From IMG/VR virus record IMGVR_UViG_3300015245_000073, positions 1-25,505 of that record: a DNA stretch of 25,505 bases, one strand, 5' to 3'. The position numbers and the translations under genes are program-made. The notes beneath the pieces were generated by a model that ran no database searches, was not told where the DNA came from, and saw nothing but the letters and a program-made list of their open reading frames with translations. Numbering within the stretch: position 1 is the stretch's first letter; each line of letters opens with the position of its first letter. The stretch comes from a virus. Positions 3,754 to 12,236 of the stretch are shown here, one piece after another.

Positions 3754-4031
3754 CCGCGGGGCCTCTCGGCGCGGACGCGCTCGAACATCTCCACCCGGGC
3801 GTGCTCGCGGCTCGCGCCGGTCGTCTCCGCCAGGTCGAGGAACCCGTCGATGAACTTCTGTCCCGGCAGGCACTCGCCCCGCTCGACGCGGTTGAGCGTT
3901 GAGCGGCTGATGCTGGCGTCGGCGAGGATGCGCGCCTGGTGCAGCTCGCCGTTGGGCTTGATCCATCTGTCGCGGTTGCGATGGGCGAGCCAGTCGAGGC
4001 CGTTGGGCTTGAGCCGGGTCTCGTTTCTCAT
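3750..4031 (-). CDS. XRE-family helix-turn-helix regulator (Cro-like)
   Basis: The 93-residue protein contains an XRE-type helix-turn-helix: GELHQARILADASISRSTLNRVERGECLPGQ, where helix 2-turn-helix 3 (ADASISRSTLNRVERG) is the classic signature, followed by a short helical tail. I prefer ATG 4031, because AAGGGGGA lies about 9 nt upstream. An in-frame ATG at 4058 sits inside the operator-like palindrome and has no ribosome site. It is the first gene of the leftward early operon and faces the other repressor-like gene across a short regulatory gap, which is the usual repressor/Cro arrangement. Which of the two maintains lysogeny cannot be decided from sequence. Confidence 0.75.
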   Translation of the reverse strand: MRNETRLKPNGLDWLAHRNRDRWIKPNGELHQARILADASISRSTLNRVERGECLPGQKFIDGFLDLAETTGASREHARVEMFERVRAERPRG

Positions 4032-7929: not shown

Positions 7930-8319
7930 CTACGGCGGCGGCGCGGCCTGACGCCTGCCCGGGTGCTTCCGGTTCTCGTCCTCCAGCTGCCCGATCGTCT
8001 CGTACAGGTCTTTGATCTGCGCGGTCTTGTCCTTCATCTGCGCCCGCAGCTCCGTGTTCTCCGCCCGCAGCGTGCTGACCTCCAGCGTCACCTGGTCGAG
8101 GCGCTCCTGCAACGCGGCGATCGTGCGCTGCTGGATGACGGTGGCCTGGTCGGCGATGCCGAGGATCGACTGCCGTTCGACGATCGGCTCCCGGGCCTCG
8201 GCGCGCTTCTCCTCGGCGGTTTTCCGCCGCTCCTCCAGCGCGTACTTGATGGCCTGCTGCACGACGGCGAACAGGGTGAGGCCGCCCGCGCCGCCGAGGA
8301 TCGTCGACAGGTCAACCAT
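7930..8319 (-). CDS. Membrane-anchored coiled-coil protein of the lysis cassette
   Basis: The 129-residue protein has an N-terminal hydrophobic segment (LSTILGGAGGLTLFAVVQQAIKYAL in two parts, residues 4-28) followed by a long charged coiled coil (about residues 29-118) with regular heptads around ALQERLDQVTLEVSTLRAEN and TELRAQMKDKTAQIKDLYET. It is the last gene of the lysis cassette and overlaps the preceding gene by 8 nt. A single anchor plus coiled coil in this place resembles actinophage spanin-like or holin-partner proteins, but no defined family is recognised. Confidence 0.65.
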   Translation of the reverse strand: MVDLSTILGGAGGLTLFAVVQQAIKYALEERRKTAEEKRAEAREPIVERQSILGIADQATVIQQRTIAALQERLDQVTLEVSTLRAENTELRAQMKDKTAQIKDLYETIGQLEDENRKHPGRRQAAPPP

Positions 8320-8800
8320 CGGTGGCGTCCCCGCGCGCGGCGGCCCGGCGTCCGGCGTTGATGCCGCGCCAGGCCCGCACGATGATCCGGGCCCGGTGCG
8401 CGCACGCCGCCGACCAGGACGCGATGATGAGGCCGCCGGACAGCCCGGCGGTGCCGAGGGCCAGGACGGCGGCGGCGTACATGCCGGCGGCCCCGGCGAA
8501 CAGGATCATGCCGAGGGTCTCCAGGCGGTTCGCGGCCTCCAGCGCCCCCTGGGTGCGGGCGGCGGAGACCCGCCACCTGGCGGCGAGGGTCACGGCCGCG
8601 CCGAGGCACAGGCCGCCGCCCCAGGAGCGCAGCACCCACGGCGACAGCTGGTGCGCCAGCGACGACGGCGCGCCGACGCCGAGCAGCACCGAGGTCCCGG
8701 AGACGAGGGCCGCGACGGCGAGCCACACCTCGAACGGCTCGGAGAAGAACAGGCCGGCGCGGGCCGACCAGCCGCGCCAGGGCGCCGTCGCCCCGCTCAC
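8312..8800 (-). CDS. Four-helix membrane protein of the lysis cassette
   Basis: This 162-residue product has four hydrophobic segments: FEVWLAVAALVSGTSVLLGVG, VLRSWGGGLCLGAAVTLAA, LGMILFAGAAGMYAAAVLALG and GLSGGLIIASWSAACA. It ends in a basic cytoplasmic-type tail. GTG 8800 overlaps the stop of the upstream holin candidate (GTGA), showing coupling. Position between holin candidate and coiled-coil protein implies a role in lysis or its timing. It could itself be a holin or an antiholin. Confidence 0.62.
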   Translation of the reverse strand: MSGATAPWRGWSARAGLFFSEPFEVWLAVAALVSGTSVLLGVGAPSSLAHQLSPWVLRSWGGGLCLGAAVTLAARWRVSAARTQGALEAANRLETLGMILFAGAAGMYAAAVLALGTAGLSGGLIIASWSAACAHRARIIVRAWRGINAGRRAAARGDATDG

Positions 8801-9033
8801 GGCTGGGGGCCCTCGGGCGGTGCGGCGTGCCGGGCGGCGGACGAGCGTGCGGGGACGGTCGGGGCGATCTCCCGCCAGATGACCTCCAGCACCGCCGGGA
8901 GTCCGGCGAGCAGCGGGTAGCGGGCCAGCCAGGTGTGGAAGAGGGCGACGACGGCCGGGGCGGTGGCCAGCCCGAACGCGGTGATGCGGATCAGCCGCCA
9001 CAGGTGCGCGCGGGTCTGCGCGTTGAGGGCCAT
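8797..9033 (-). CDS. Putative holin, 78 residues
   Basis: A short protein directly downstream of the endolysin, with 5 bases between the genes. It has a basic amphipathic N-terminus (MALNAQTRAHLWRLIR), a hydrophobic stretch ITAFGLATAPAVVALFHTWLA, a second apolar stretch YPLLAGLPAVLEVIW and a polar Pro/Ala/Arg tail. Size, membrane segments and place fit a small actinophage holin, which would form membrane lesions that let the lysozyme reach the cell wall. Holins share little sequence, so the call rests on context. Confidence 0.6.
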   Translation of the reverse strand: MALNAQTRAHLWRLIRITAFGLATAPAVVALFHTWLARYPLLAGLPAVLEVIWREIAPTVPARSSAARHAAPPEGPQP

Positions 9034-9038
9034 GGCGG

Positions 9039-9374
9039 TCAGCCCTTCGCCAGCGTCGCGGCCAGGTGCGCGACGACTGCGTTCGCGACCGCGTCCGGCG
9101 AGGCCCCGGCTGTGATGTGCGGGGCCAGGGCGGCGGCCAGGGCGTTGACGTCCACGGCCGGCGGGGATGCCGAGGCCGGGCGGGCGAGGAGTTGGTCGAG
9201 CTTCGCCGAGTTCGCCTGCTCCAAGTCGCGGGCCTGGCGCGCGTACAGTGCGGCGGCCCTCGCCCCTCCATCGGCCCAGATGAGCGCGCTCTCGTCGGTG
9301 AAGGTCGCGTTCGGGGGGAAGTCGCCGGCCAGTTCCGGCCACTTCTGGCTGATCGACGGGGGGATGGTGCCCAT
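9039..9374 (-). CDS. Possible independently started C-terminal endolysin product
   Basis: Inside the endolysin gene and in the same frame, ATG 9374 (codon 220) is preceded by AGGGAGG (complement of 9382-9388) at an optimal 7-nt spacing. Translation here would give a 111-residue protein, MGTIPPSISQKWPELAGDF..., equal to the region after the lysozyme domain and its linker. Some endolysins, such as enterococcal Lys170 and clostridial CTP1L, make a free wall-binding part this way that assembles with the full-length chain. Whether it is used here is inference. Confidence 0.45.
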   Translation of the reverse strand: MGTIPPSISQKWPELAGDFPPNATFTDESALIWADGGARAAALYARQARDLEQANSAKLDQLLARPASASPPAVDVNALAAALAPHITAGASPDAVANAVVAHLAATLAKG

Positions 9375-10031
9375 GGTGCTGCCTCCCTGGGGAGTCGGTG
9401 GAGAAGTGGTGGGAGGTGCGCCGAGGAAGGCGGCGAGCTGCTCGCGGGTGCCCTTGAACGCGTTCACATCGCCGACGCGCTGCCCGCCCTCGACCGCATG
9501 GTCGGTGTACTGGTACAGCAGCGGGGTCATGCCGCCGTAGGGCTGCCAGCCCCCGGCGCCGTCGCCCGGGTAGCCGGTGCCGCCGGGGTACGCGGAGGAC
9601 ACCAGGGCGATGCCGCGCGTCTTCAGCGGCGTCAGGTCCGGCGACCCGATCTGCGACCAGTACCAGCGGGGCAGGTACGCCAGTCTCGGGCGGAGGCCGT
9701 GCGCCGCGCACCGGTCCGTGAGGGCCAGGACCTGCGGCAGCGTCGGCCTTGAGGACCCCGTCGGCTCCACGTCCAGCATCAGCGGCAGCGACGCGTCGAC
9801 GATCCACGCGGCGATCCACGCGGCCTGGTCGTCGGGGGCCTCGCCGGCGACGACGAAGTGGTAGGCCACCGCGAGTTTCCCGGAAGTTTTCGCTTGCCCT
9901 AGCCAACCTTCGTAGTCGGCGTCGGCGTAGTACGTGCCCTCGGTGACCTTCAGCAGGACGAACGGGTCGGGCAGGGCGGCGACATCGATGCCGTGCTGGT
10001 AGCTGGAGACGTCCGGCCCGAAGATCGTCAT
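9039..10031 (-). CDS. Endolysin: GH25 lysozyme with C-terminal region
   Basis: The 330-residue protein opens with FGPDVSSYQHGID (conserved Asp), then VLLKVTEGTYYADADY, VAYHFVVAGEAPDDQAAW, and LPLMLDVEPTG with the catalytic Asp-x-Glu near residue 91. Later, LLYQYTDH closes the glycosyl hydrolase 25 barrel by about residue 205. GH25 enzymes cut the MurNAc-GlcNAc bond of peptidoglycan. A Pro/Thr linker leads to a C-terminal region (220-330) of no recognised wall-binding family, with ALIWADGGARAAALYARQARDLEQANSAKL in pieces and a helical end. ATG 10031 has GGGAG 6 nt upstream and the protein begins without a signal peptide, so it depends on the holin. A strong in-frame ribosome site and ATG at 9374 may start a separate C-terminal product. 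Confidence 0.9.
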   Translation of the reverse strand: MTIFGPDVSSYQHGIDVAALPDPFVLLKVTEGTYYADADYEGWLGQAKTSGKLAVAYHFVVAGEAPDDQAAWIAAWIVDASLPLMLDVEPTGSSRPTLPQVLALTDRCAAHGLRPRLAYLPRWYWSQIGSPDLTPLKTRGIALVSSAYPGGTGYPGDGAGGWQPYGGMTPLLYQYTDHAVEGGQRVGDVNAFKGTREQLAAFLGAPPTTSPPTPQGGSTMGTIPPSISQKWPELAGDFPPNATFTDESALIWADGGARAAALYARQARDLEQANSAKLDQLLARPASASPPAVDVNALAAALAPHITAGASPDAVANAVVAHLAATLAKG

Positions 10032-10214
10032 GCCGCGCTCCCGAGCAGAACCATGACGACCTCCGTAGCCGGACACCCCGATGCCGCCAGTCTCCCCACG
10101 GGATCAAGCGCAGCCGCCGGTGTTGAACCCGCGGAGACACTGGAGATCAAGCCGCCTCGGGAGCGGCCTGCCGCAGCGCCCGGCAGGCGCAACCGTTGAT
10201 CAGGGAACATTGAG
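10032..10214. promoter_or_regulatory. Divergent gap between lysis and structural operons
   Basis: These 183 bases must carry the start signals for the leftward lysis genes and the rightward packaging/structural genes. AGGGA lies 8 nt before the terminase small subunit start. I see no box pair close enough to consensus to call. A 48-codon frame from ATG 10053 to 10199 exists but lacks a ribosome site and features. Confidence 0.4.
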
Positions 10215-10682
10215 ATGAGCCGATCCACGGAGGCGCGGATCACCACCGCCGAGCGCCGCGCGCACGTCATAGCCCTGCGCCGCGAGGGGCGCACGTTCGC
10301 CGAGATCGGCGAAGACCTCGGGGTGTCGGCGCAGCGCGCCCACGTGATCTACCTGGAAGCGCTCAAGGAGATCCCGGCACGCGAGGTCGACCAGTACCGC
10401 GCCGAGGCGCTCGACCTCATCCACGCCGCGATCGAGGACCTGCTTCCCATCGCCCGCGACCACGATCAGCCCAGAACCCGAGTCGAGGCCTGGAGCCAGC
10501 TTCGCGCATGGATTGAGCGGCTGGCCAAGACCACCGGCTTCGACGCCTCGACGAAGATCGACGCGAACGTCATGCCAGCCGCTCAGGAGGACCCCGAACT
10601 CACCCGGCTCCTGACCGAAGCCCGCGAACGCCTCGCCGCAGAGGAAGCCGAACTCCTCGGCGAGACTCCGCCCACGACGTAG
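10215..10682 (+). CDS. Terminase small subunit
   Basis: The 155-residue protein has an N-terminal sigma-region-4-like helix-turn-helix (ERRAHVIALRREGRTFAEIGEDLGVSAQRAHVIYLEAL) followed by helical oligomerisation segments and an acidic C-terminal helix (LTRLLTEARERLAAEEAELLGE). Directly before the large terminase and first in the structural operon, this is the usual place and build of a small terminase, which recognises the phage DNA for packaging and loads the motor. The HTH resembles those that bind pac or cos sites. ATG 10215 follows AGGGA at 8 nt. Confidence 0.78.
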   Translation: MSRSTEARITTAERRAHVIALRREGRTFAEIGEDLGVSAQRAHVIYLEALKEIPAREVDQYRAEALDLIHAAIEDLLPIARDHDQPRTRVEAWSQLRAWIERLAKTTGFDASTKIDANVMPAAQEDPELTRLLTEARERLAAEEAELLGETPPTT

Positions 10683-10685
10683 TCC

Positions 10686-12236
10686 GTGGACTACCGCGGC
10701 TTCAAGCTCGACGCGTGGCTGGAGACGCTGGATCCGAAGCTCATGGCCACCAGTGAGGGCCGGCGCATCCGCACCCGCCTCGACCCCATGGCCTTCGGAT
10801 ACACGTACCTCAGGCATCACCTCGCCGGGCCGGAAACCAAAGAGCGGATCACATTCTCGGAGTTCCACCTCGACGTGTACCGGCAAGCGAGGGCGTGGGC
10901 GAAACCGAACGCCACACCTGCGGCCAACCGCGATGCCTACGTCGCCCCAAGGTCGGCGGCGAAGTCGACGATGTTCTTTTTGATCCTCCCCCTGTGGATG
11001 GCCTGCCACCGCCACGAGGACTTCATCGCAGCCTTCGCCGACTCCGGCACGCAGGCCGAGATGCACCTGGCCACGTTCAAGCGGGAGCTGGAAACCAACG
11101 AGTTGCTGCGCATGGACTTCCCGGAGCTATGCACCCCGGCGAAACGGGCCCGCGGCACGACCGAGGCCGACAACCGCGGCATGCTCATCGCGTCCTCAGG
11201 GTTCGTGTTCGGCGCCCGCGGCATCGACGCGTCCAGCCTGGGGATGAAGGTCGGCCGACGCCGTCCGGGCCTTCTCTTAGGAGACGATCTAGAACCGGGA
11301 GAGGAGACGTATAGCGCCTATCAGGCTGAGAAGCGCCTGGGTGCGCTCATCGACTCCGTCCTGCCGTTGAACGTCTACGCCCGCGTCGTCGTCGTTGGCA
11401 CCGTCACCATGCCCGGGTCGATCGTGCATCAGCTCGTCAAGACCGTGACGGCCCCCGATGAGCCGCCGGAGCGGTGGATCGTGGATGAGAAGTTCCGCAC
11501 CCACTACTACCCGGCGATCCTGACGGACCCGGAGACGGGCGAGGAGAGGTCGCTGTGGCCGCAGAAGTGGCCGATGGGCTACTTGGAGTCGATCCGGCAC
11601 ACCCGGCAGTACAAGAAGAACTACGCCAACGATCCGGCCGGCCGTGACGGCGACTACTGGAACGCCGAGGACTTCGTGTACGGCGAGGTTCCGGCGCTGA
11701 CGCATCAGCTGCTGTCGATCGACCCGGCGGTGACGGCGAAGAAGCGCTCCGACTTCACGGCGCTGGCGGTGATCGGCTACTCGGCGGGCGGGCAGCGGTG
11801 CGTGGTGCGGTGGGCCCGCGCGGTGCGGATCCAGCCGGGCGCGCCGCTGCGGGACCTGGTGCTGCGGGTGCTGGATCAGTTTCCGGATATCCGCGGCGTC
11901 CTGATCGAGACGAATCAGGGCGGGGACGTGTGGCGGTCGGTGCTGCACGGTCTGCCGGTGCCGGTGAAGACGGTGCACCAGTCCGAGGCCAAGGAGGTTC
12001 GTGCGGCCAGGCTGCTGAACTTCTACCAGCGCCGTCGCAACGGATTGCCGCTGGTGATGCATGAGCAGCGCCTGCCTGCGGTTGAGGAGCAGATGATCGG
12101 CTTCCCGAAGTCGGCGCATGACGACCTCGTCGACTGCGTCGGCACCGGCGTGGACGTGTTCCTGCGCCGCAGCAGGAAGGCCGGCGGCTCGTCGGTCGAC
12201 CCGCGGTACGGCGACGAGGACGACGACGCGTTCTGA
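10686..12236 (+). CDS. terL: Terminase large subunit (packaging ATPase and nuclease)
   Basis: This 516-residue motor protein starts at GTG 10686, three bases after the small subunit stop. The ATPase domain shows a variant Walker A, APRSAAKSTM (Lys93), a Walker B LLLGDDLE (196-203) and a coupling segment around VVVVGTVTMPG (234-244). The RNase H-like nuclease domain shows LLSIDPAVTAKKRSDFTALAVIG (Asp346), GVLIETNQGG (Glu408) and SAHDDLVDCVG (Asp479/480), the expected acidic triad. It translocates DNA into the prohead through the portal and cuts the concatemer. The Walker A lacks the common second Gly and has Ala-Ala before Lys, a known kind of variation among large terminases. Around Walker B the gene uses codons rare in the rest of the window (CTT, TTA, GGA, CTA). 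Confidence 0.93.
   Translation: MDYRGFKLDAWLETLDPKLMATSEGRRIRTRLDPMAFGYTYLRHHLAGPETKERITFSEFHLDVYRQARAWAKPNATPAANRDAYVAPRSAAKSTMFFLILPLWMACHRHEDFIAAFADSGTQAEMHLATFKRELETNELLRMDFPELCTPAKRARGTTEADNRGMLIASSGFVFGARGIDASSLGMKVGRRRPGLLLGDDLEPGEETYSAYQAEKRLGALIDSVLPLNVYARVVVVGTVTMPGSIVHQLVKTVTAPDEPPERWIVDEKFRTHYYPAILTDPETGEERSLWPQKWPMGYLESIRHTRQYKKNYANDPAGRDGDYWNAEDFVYGEVPALTHQLLSIDPAVTAKKRSDFTALAVIGYSAGGQRCVVRWARAVRIQPGAPLRDLVLRVLDQFPDIRGVLIETNQGGDVWRSVLHGLPVPVKTVHQSEAKEVRAARLLNFYQRRRNGLPLVMHEQRLPAVEEQMIGFPKSAHDDLVDCVGTGVDVFLRRSRKAGGSSVDPRYGDEDDDAF

Follow-up and report, generated by a model that had tools for sequence, protein, structure and literature searches.

Does the lysin gene of this virus contig specify one protein or two? 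The window, as we call the whole 25.5-kb stretch of viral DNA analyzed here, has a leftward lysis region on its minus strand, and its terminase and portal genes lie on the plus strand from position 10686 on. A sequence-only reading of the window had singled out a ribosome binding site inside the lysin gene and had proposed that this gene makes both a full-length enzyme and a free C-terminal protein that assembles with it, the C-terminal region being an undescribed wall-binding or oligomerization domain.

The lysin gene and the recurrence of its internal start

The lysin ORF extends from ATG 10031 to the stop at 9039 and encodes a protein of 330 amino acids (34.3 kDa) that opens MTIFGPDVSS (Table 1). 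ATG 10031 is most likely the start of the gene; the outermost start in the mechanical ORF list, GTG 10076, was rejected because GH25 homology begins at ATG 10031 and a leader ORF overlaps that codon. The protein matches PF01183 (GH25) in Pfam (E = 3e-12) and the endolysin family phrog_3084 in PHROG (E = 1e-38). The AlphaFold model has a pLDDT mostly above 85 over the GH25 domain (residues 1-203), falling below 50 at residues 214-223, and a Foldseek search with it retrieved GH25 lysozymes, with that of Streptomyces coelicolor (1jfx) at the top. Acids D87, E89, and D188 are invariant across 20 relatives, and D7 nearly so. Profile, modeled fold and catalytic acids all identify the protein as a GH25 muramidase, with a predicted enzyme activity. 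Of the small codirectional genes downstream, 8800-8312 weakly matches a phage membrane-protein family and 8319-7930 a “hol-like” family (E 5e-5 to 4e-3 for both), and 9033-8797 had no match in the family search of window genes. Judged by sequence, these three genes are probably the rest of the lysis cassette.

Table 1. Features of the lysin region, in positions of the window.
Feature	Position	Strand	Description
Full-length endolysin	9039..10031	-	GH25 domain, Pro/Thr linker and C-terminal module; PF01183, phrog_3084, Foldseek
GH25 catalytic domain	9423..10031	-	Residues 1-203; Pfam, catalytic acids, model, Foldseek
Pro/Thr-rich linker	9375..9422	-	Residues 204-219; includes PPTTSPPTPQGGST; also encodes the internal Shine-Dalgarno sequence
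Internal Shine-Dalgarno sequence AGGGAGG	9382..9388	-	7 nt before ATG 9374; duplex energy -11.1 kcal/mol
Predicted short product (module M1)	9039..9374	-	111 aa, 11.18 kDa; start conserved in L005, L107 and L109
Conserved core of M1, IWADGGARAAALYARQ	9186..9296	-	Short-product residues 27-63; long helix predicted, low confidence
C-terminal 39-aa tail common to M1 and M2	9048..9164	-	Ala/Val-rich predicted helical hairpin; hhalign probability 97.6%
Eight-codon leader ORF (MVLLGSAA, then stop)	10028..10054	-	Own GGAGG; stop overlaps lysin start (ATGA)
Small genes downstream, codirectional with the lysin	7930..9033	-	9033-8797, 8800-8312, 8319-7930

The internal site is as the sequence-only reading described it: on the minus strand, AGGGAGG (9388-9382) is followed by CAGCACC (9381-9375) and by ATG (9374-9372), in frame with the lysin. 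This ATG is residue 220, where the PPTTSPPTPQGGST linker ends, and the GH25 domain ends near residue 203, placing an in-frame start with its ribosome site between the domains; a single stop codon would serve both products. The earlier estimate of about 11-12 kDa for the short product agrees with the computed mass. The window contains a single AGGGAGG-N5-9-ATG, where shuffles predict 0.17. By duplex energy, its Shine-Dalgarno (SD) sequence is stronger than the one before the full-length start (-6.6 kcal/mol), and among 40 in-frame ATGs within 12 other window ORFs, some of them mechanical, not one reaches -9 kcal/mol. RNA folding places the full-length start in a stable stem (z -3.2) but not the internal start (z -0.25), and control by a hairpin at the latter was ruled out on its ordinary RNA structure. 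Ribosomes very probably use ATG 9374.

Relatives were gathered by GH25 patterns alone, blind to the internal site, which yielded 22 distinct, complete lysins besides that of the window. Counted by eye, an in-frame start with an SD sequence stands at the GH25 border in 14 of the 22 (L005, L006 (= L002), L007, L008, L010, L011, L013, L016, L018, L023, L025, L027, L028, and L030). Its absence from the other eight (L009, L012, L014, L017, L020, L021, L022, and L024) weighs against the two-product reading. An automatic scan (cut-off -6.4) gave 15 rather than 14, L024 passing on a GTG inside its peptidoglycan-binding domain, and in L018 the scan chose a later GTG over the border ATG. Taking as border ATGs those in frame and at most 32 residues past the GH25 end, and as SD matches values of -6.4 or lower, we found matches at 12 of 14 border ATGs, and at 10 of the 87 ATGs that these genes have in other places (Fisher p = 4e-8); permutation of linker codons in 14 genes gave p = 2e-13 when combined, both p-values being too small because the relatives are not independent. 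Loss of the site and its ATG in close relatives would have told against the original proposal, and L002 (55% identical) and L005 (60%) retain the two.

An alternative explanation for such a site is chance or constraint on the protein, in which a GC-rich gene whose linker is acidic or rich in Gly produces GGAGG ahead of a methionine by accident. The linker of the window could be read in this way, since its Gln-Gly-Gly alone forces an SD-like run and every synonymous recoding still gives one; the 10 matches among 87 other ATGs also show that SD-like sites arise elsewhere. When synonymous codons were shuffled with the protein held fixed, the SD sequences were not significant (combined p = 0.20) and selection on codon choice was not seen, because linker residues (Gln-Gly-Gly, Glu-Asp) already spell SD-like codons. 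The excess at border ATGs and the permutation result nevertheless argue against this explanation, as does the presence of the start in lysins with unrelated tails. Moreover, GGAG(G) is spelled by different residues in different registers: CAG GGA GGC in the window, ACC GGA GGA in L006, CCG GAG GAC in L008, AAG GAG ACA in L011, CCA GGA GAG in L013, and CAG GAG GAC in L030. Because different residues and codon registers write the same SD sequence, the recurring signal appears to be a nucleotide signal, not a peptide. In the genes compared, the internal site with its border position is more than chance, and we regard chance or protein-level constraint as a most improbable account of it.

Tail modules and their exchange between catalytic domains

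The tails behind the internal starts belong to about ten sequence types, mostly unrelated; those beyond M1 to M4 were told apart by eye and by absent tblastn matches, not by profile comparison. M1 comprises the tails of the window, L005, L107, and L109 (the others 65-66% identical to the window's), M2 those of L002 and L007, M3 nine copies, and M4 those of L010, L129, L132, and L133. Profile comparison found no relation of M1 to M3 or to M4, and M1 and M2 share only their last 39 residues. In L007 this hairpin tail is partly duplicated, and it makes a smaller exchangeable unit inside the module.

The fold prediction for M1 is poor (mean pLDDT 67) and holds only helices, namely the long helix and the hairpin. 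The 111-residue tail has no match in Pfam, PHROG or PDB sequences and is not recognizable as a known wall-binding domain, and tblastn searches with M1 against isolate phages and plasmids returned nothing even at E = 10 and E = 1. Against 394 genomes of the class of Catenulispora there were three weak hits only (L120, L121, and L122). L120 and L122 were rejected as homologues, being unrelated Ala-rich or Arg-rich frames, and L121 scores no better. These searches, and the four members found (the window included), support the earlier suggestion that the tail is an undescribed module. Among the proteins tested, tails with an internal start had no Pfam match, whereas relatives without one include L012 and L024, which end in PG_binding_1, and L017 and L022, which end in a weak fn3 match. 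In this small sample, the contrast fits the idea that modules come with an internal start when additional free copies of them are needed.

Two of the modules occur behind more than one kind of catalytic domain. M1 follows a GH25 domain in the window, L005, and L109; in L107 it follows the Rv2525c-like domain PF08924 (E = 2e-23), and this junction has an in-frame GTG after TGGAGG. M4 follows GH25 in L010. It stands behind PF08924 in L129 (Mycobacterium abscessus prophage prophi91-3, with the GTG at residue 219 of its LysA), and sequence similarity makes the same arrangement evident for L132 and L133; all three PF08924 junctions carry AGGAG(G) and GTG. On a tree of the GH25 domain, M1 and M2 are scattered and M3 needs four changes, a single M3 clade being rejected (p-AU 1.6e-45). 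Because M1 and M4 both sit on GH25 and PF08924 with starts at the junctions, and because of the tree, these comparisons indicate that cassettes of SD sequence, start and module are exchanged under different catalytic domains.

With module exchange this clear, the SD sequence and start could be a relic of the recombination that joined two genes, unused, with only the full-length protein made or relevant. A junction formed in this way would carry the old start along, and the synonymous shuffling shows no codon-level selection. An unused site should decay, however, and SD sequence and start persist within module families (4/4 copies of M1, 2/2 of M2 and 9/9 of M3), down to 52% protein identity and with module and linker at 52-66% identity. 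In addition, a strong, unstructured SD sequence followed by ATG is normally used, wanted or not, which counts further against a relic. We consider a relic quite improbable, and continued use of the start the better reading.

One of the tails is also found as a gene of its own. Counted from its internal ATG (residue 212), the L023 module matches phrog_2424 from position 1 (E = 2.6e-20), and homologues occur in 144 Mycobacterium phage records; among the records listed, the homologue is a separate hypothetical gene adjoining an annotated holin. In phage Contagion it is gp33, located between the holin gp32 and lysin B gp34. By this homology, at least one tail type also has a separate gene in the lysis cassette, and the start of that gene is equivalent to the internal start in the fused lysin. 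The proteins of phrog_2424 are small lysis-cassette proteins homologous to the L023 tail, but they are free-standing and unfused, and they are not homologous to M1 of the window. The homologous segments are 4001-4339 of L119 (Contagion gp33) and 3634-4011 of L023, and no lysis role is annotated for gp33.

A tail with such a history might lead a dual life: a separate small lysis gene would have been joined in frame, its old start would still be used, and the free protein would act alone rather than as an enzyme subunit. The stand-alone homologues of the L023 tail, the position of gp33 in its cassette and the swapping of cassettes between catalytic families together with their starts all favor this explanation. 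On the other hand, the searches turned up a free-standing homologue for just one of the roughly ten module types, and IMG/VR holds none for M1, M2 or M3, all copies found being fused. All four M1 copies are attached to an enzyme, and the attachment seems to matter. We therefore rate action of the free protein solely on its own as rather unlikely, and favor a gene whose short product serves the full enzyme. Because the homologue of the L023 tail is a stand-alone lysis-cassette gene, the short product might have an independent action as well.

Proposed products and their known counterparts

We propose that one message is translated in two ways, with ATG 10031 giving the complete GH25 lysozyme, tail included, and independent initiation at ATG 9374 giving the free 111-residue tail. 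The tail would be a replaceable cassette with its own SD sequence and start codon, and, most likely, free copies would associate with the one on the full enzyme to give an enzyme with several anchoring or oligomerizing tails. The two-product endolysin of the sequence-only reading is well supported, because divergent lysins with unrelated C-terminal modules have an in-frame SD sequence and start at one and the same domain border, and production of both proteins from the gene is, on this comparative evidence, very likely. Association of the full and short products is about evenly balanced, and binding of the tail to the wall slightly less probable than that. An excess of short product over full enzyme is plausible because the internal SD sequence is the stronger one (-11.1 versus -6.6) and a stable stem covers the full-length start. 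Oligomerization and wall binding by M1 are put forward as hypotheses, the model of the module being of low confidence.

Two-product endolysins are known and are predicted to be common, with experimental support for several genes (PMC9430671). Predicted internal starts occur in about half of Gram-positive phage endolysins and in 15.2% of portal-protein genes (PMC9430671), and the latter figure counts against taking a predicted start as a sign of two products. Among endolysins with one catalytic and one C-terminal domain, association has been shown with stoichiometries of 1:3, 2:2, and 1:5, and LysJavan488 makes two products whose association was not seen (PMC9430671). In CTP1L, an SD sequence within the linker leads to a free C-terminal domain, which is lost when two SD-coding residues are changed (PMC4777826). 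The clostridial CTP1L, CS74L, and CD27L resemble the window lysin in that one gene has an in-frame internal SD sequence and start in the linker and a short product that is the C-terminal domain alone (PMC4777826), and Foldseek matched the glycosyl hydrolase domain of CTP1L to the window lysin. For their C-terminal domain, the structure is solved and oligomers are demonstrated, whereas M1 has neither a PDB sequence match nor a reliable model.

Lys170, LysIME-EF1, and LysP7951 likewise have a single catalytic domain, which an in-frame internal start separates from a single C-terminal domain (PMC9430671, PMC7098653). Their full and short products form 1:3 or 1:5 complexes, whereas for the window lysin a complex is a proposal; they belong to phages of enterococcal or streptococcal hosts, and their module is unrelated to M1 as far as Pfam and PDB sequence searches go. 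Among actinophages, Ms6 uses an in-frame start in lysA to produce a second protein (Lysin384/Lysin241) in its mycobacterial host (PMC3111421), and the mycobacteriophage lysin LysPollywog also has an in-frame internal start that gives a second product (PMC9430671). Few actinophage two-product cases have been tested, and in these two the short product keeps a catalytic domain, whereas that of the window would be the tail only.

The window adds to this known kind of system an undescribed tail family, its presence on two catalytic families and a wider actinophage pattern. We did not find start-carrying tails described in a literature search that left out most subscription journals and bioRxiv preprints. 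The internal start travels with many unrelated tails and with two catalytic families, so that its conservation can be told apart from that of the protein. The comparison also yields a short list of undescribed modules as candidate oligomerization or wall-binding domains for actinobacteria, and recoded cloning of such lysins may lose a subunit. Tentatively, and with a little less than even confidence, we suggest that actinophage lysin tails in general are mobile cassettes carrying their own starts. Small lysis genes would have been fused in frame behind catalytic domains and swapped between them, keeping their start, so that the gene always makes the free tail along with the enzyme. Several undescribed tail families, including M1, would oligomerize or anchor to the wall, and some would also work unattached.

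Other LysA proteins and the sequence upstream of the lysin

Some of the three-part LysA proteins of isolate phages and prophages of Mycobacterium, Rhodococcus, and Corynebacterium have a strong SD sequence and in-frame start at a domain border. These lie just before GH25 in L125 (residue 156) and L127 (residue 165), and just after it in L126 (residue 376) and L128 (residue 377). The LysA proteins of L123 and L130 have them at neither GH25 border.

The leader ORF at the start of the window lysin has a counterpart in L002 (MNWVASAP followed by a stop, 3819-3845), in which length, SD sequence and overlap are kept and the peptide differs. In the window, the leader region folds into the stem that covers the lysin start (z -3.2). 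The leader ORF could couple or attenuate translation of the lysin, its exact form being found in two genomes only. Immediately beyond it, a stretch at about 10055-10150 of the window and about 3720-3820 of L002 is strongly conserved, apparently more than the lysin itself. It is located between the lysin and a divergent 155-aa gene at 10215, which probably encodes a small terminase or DNA-binding protein. The stretch holds two copies of GCTTGATCyC and is possibly a cos/pac site or an operator.
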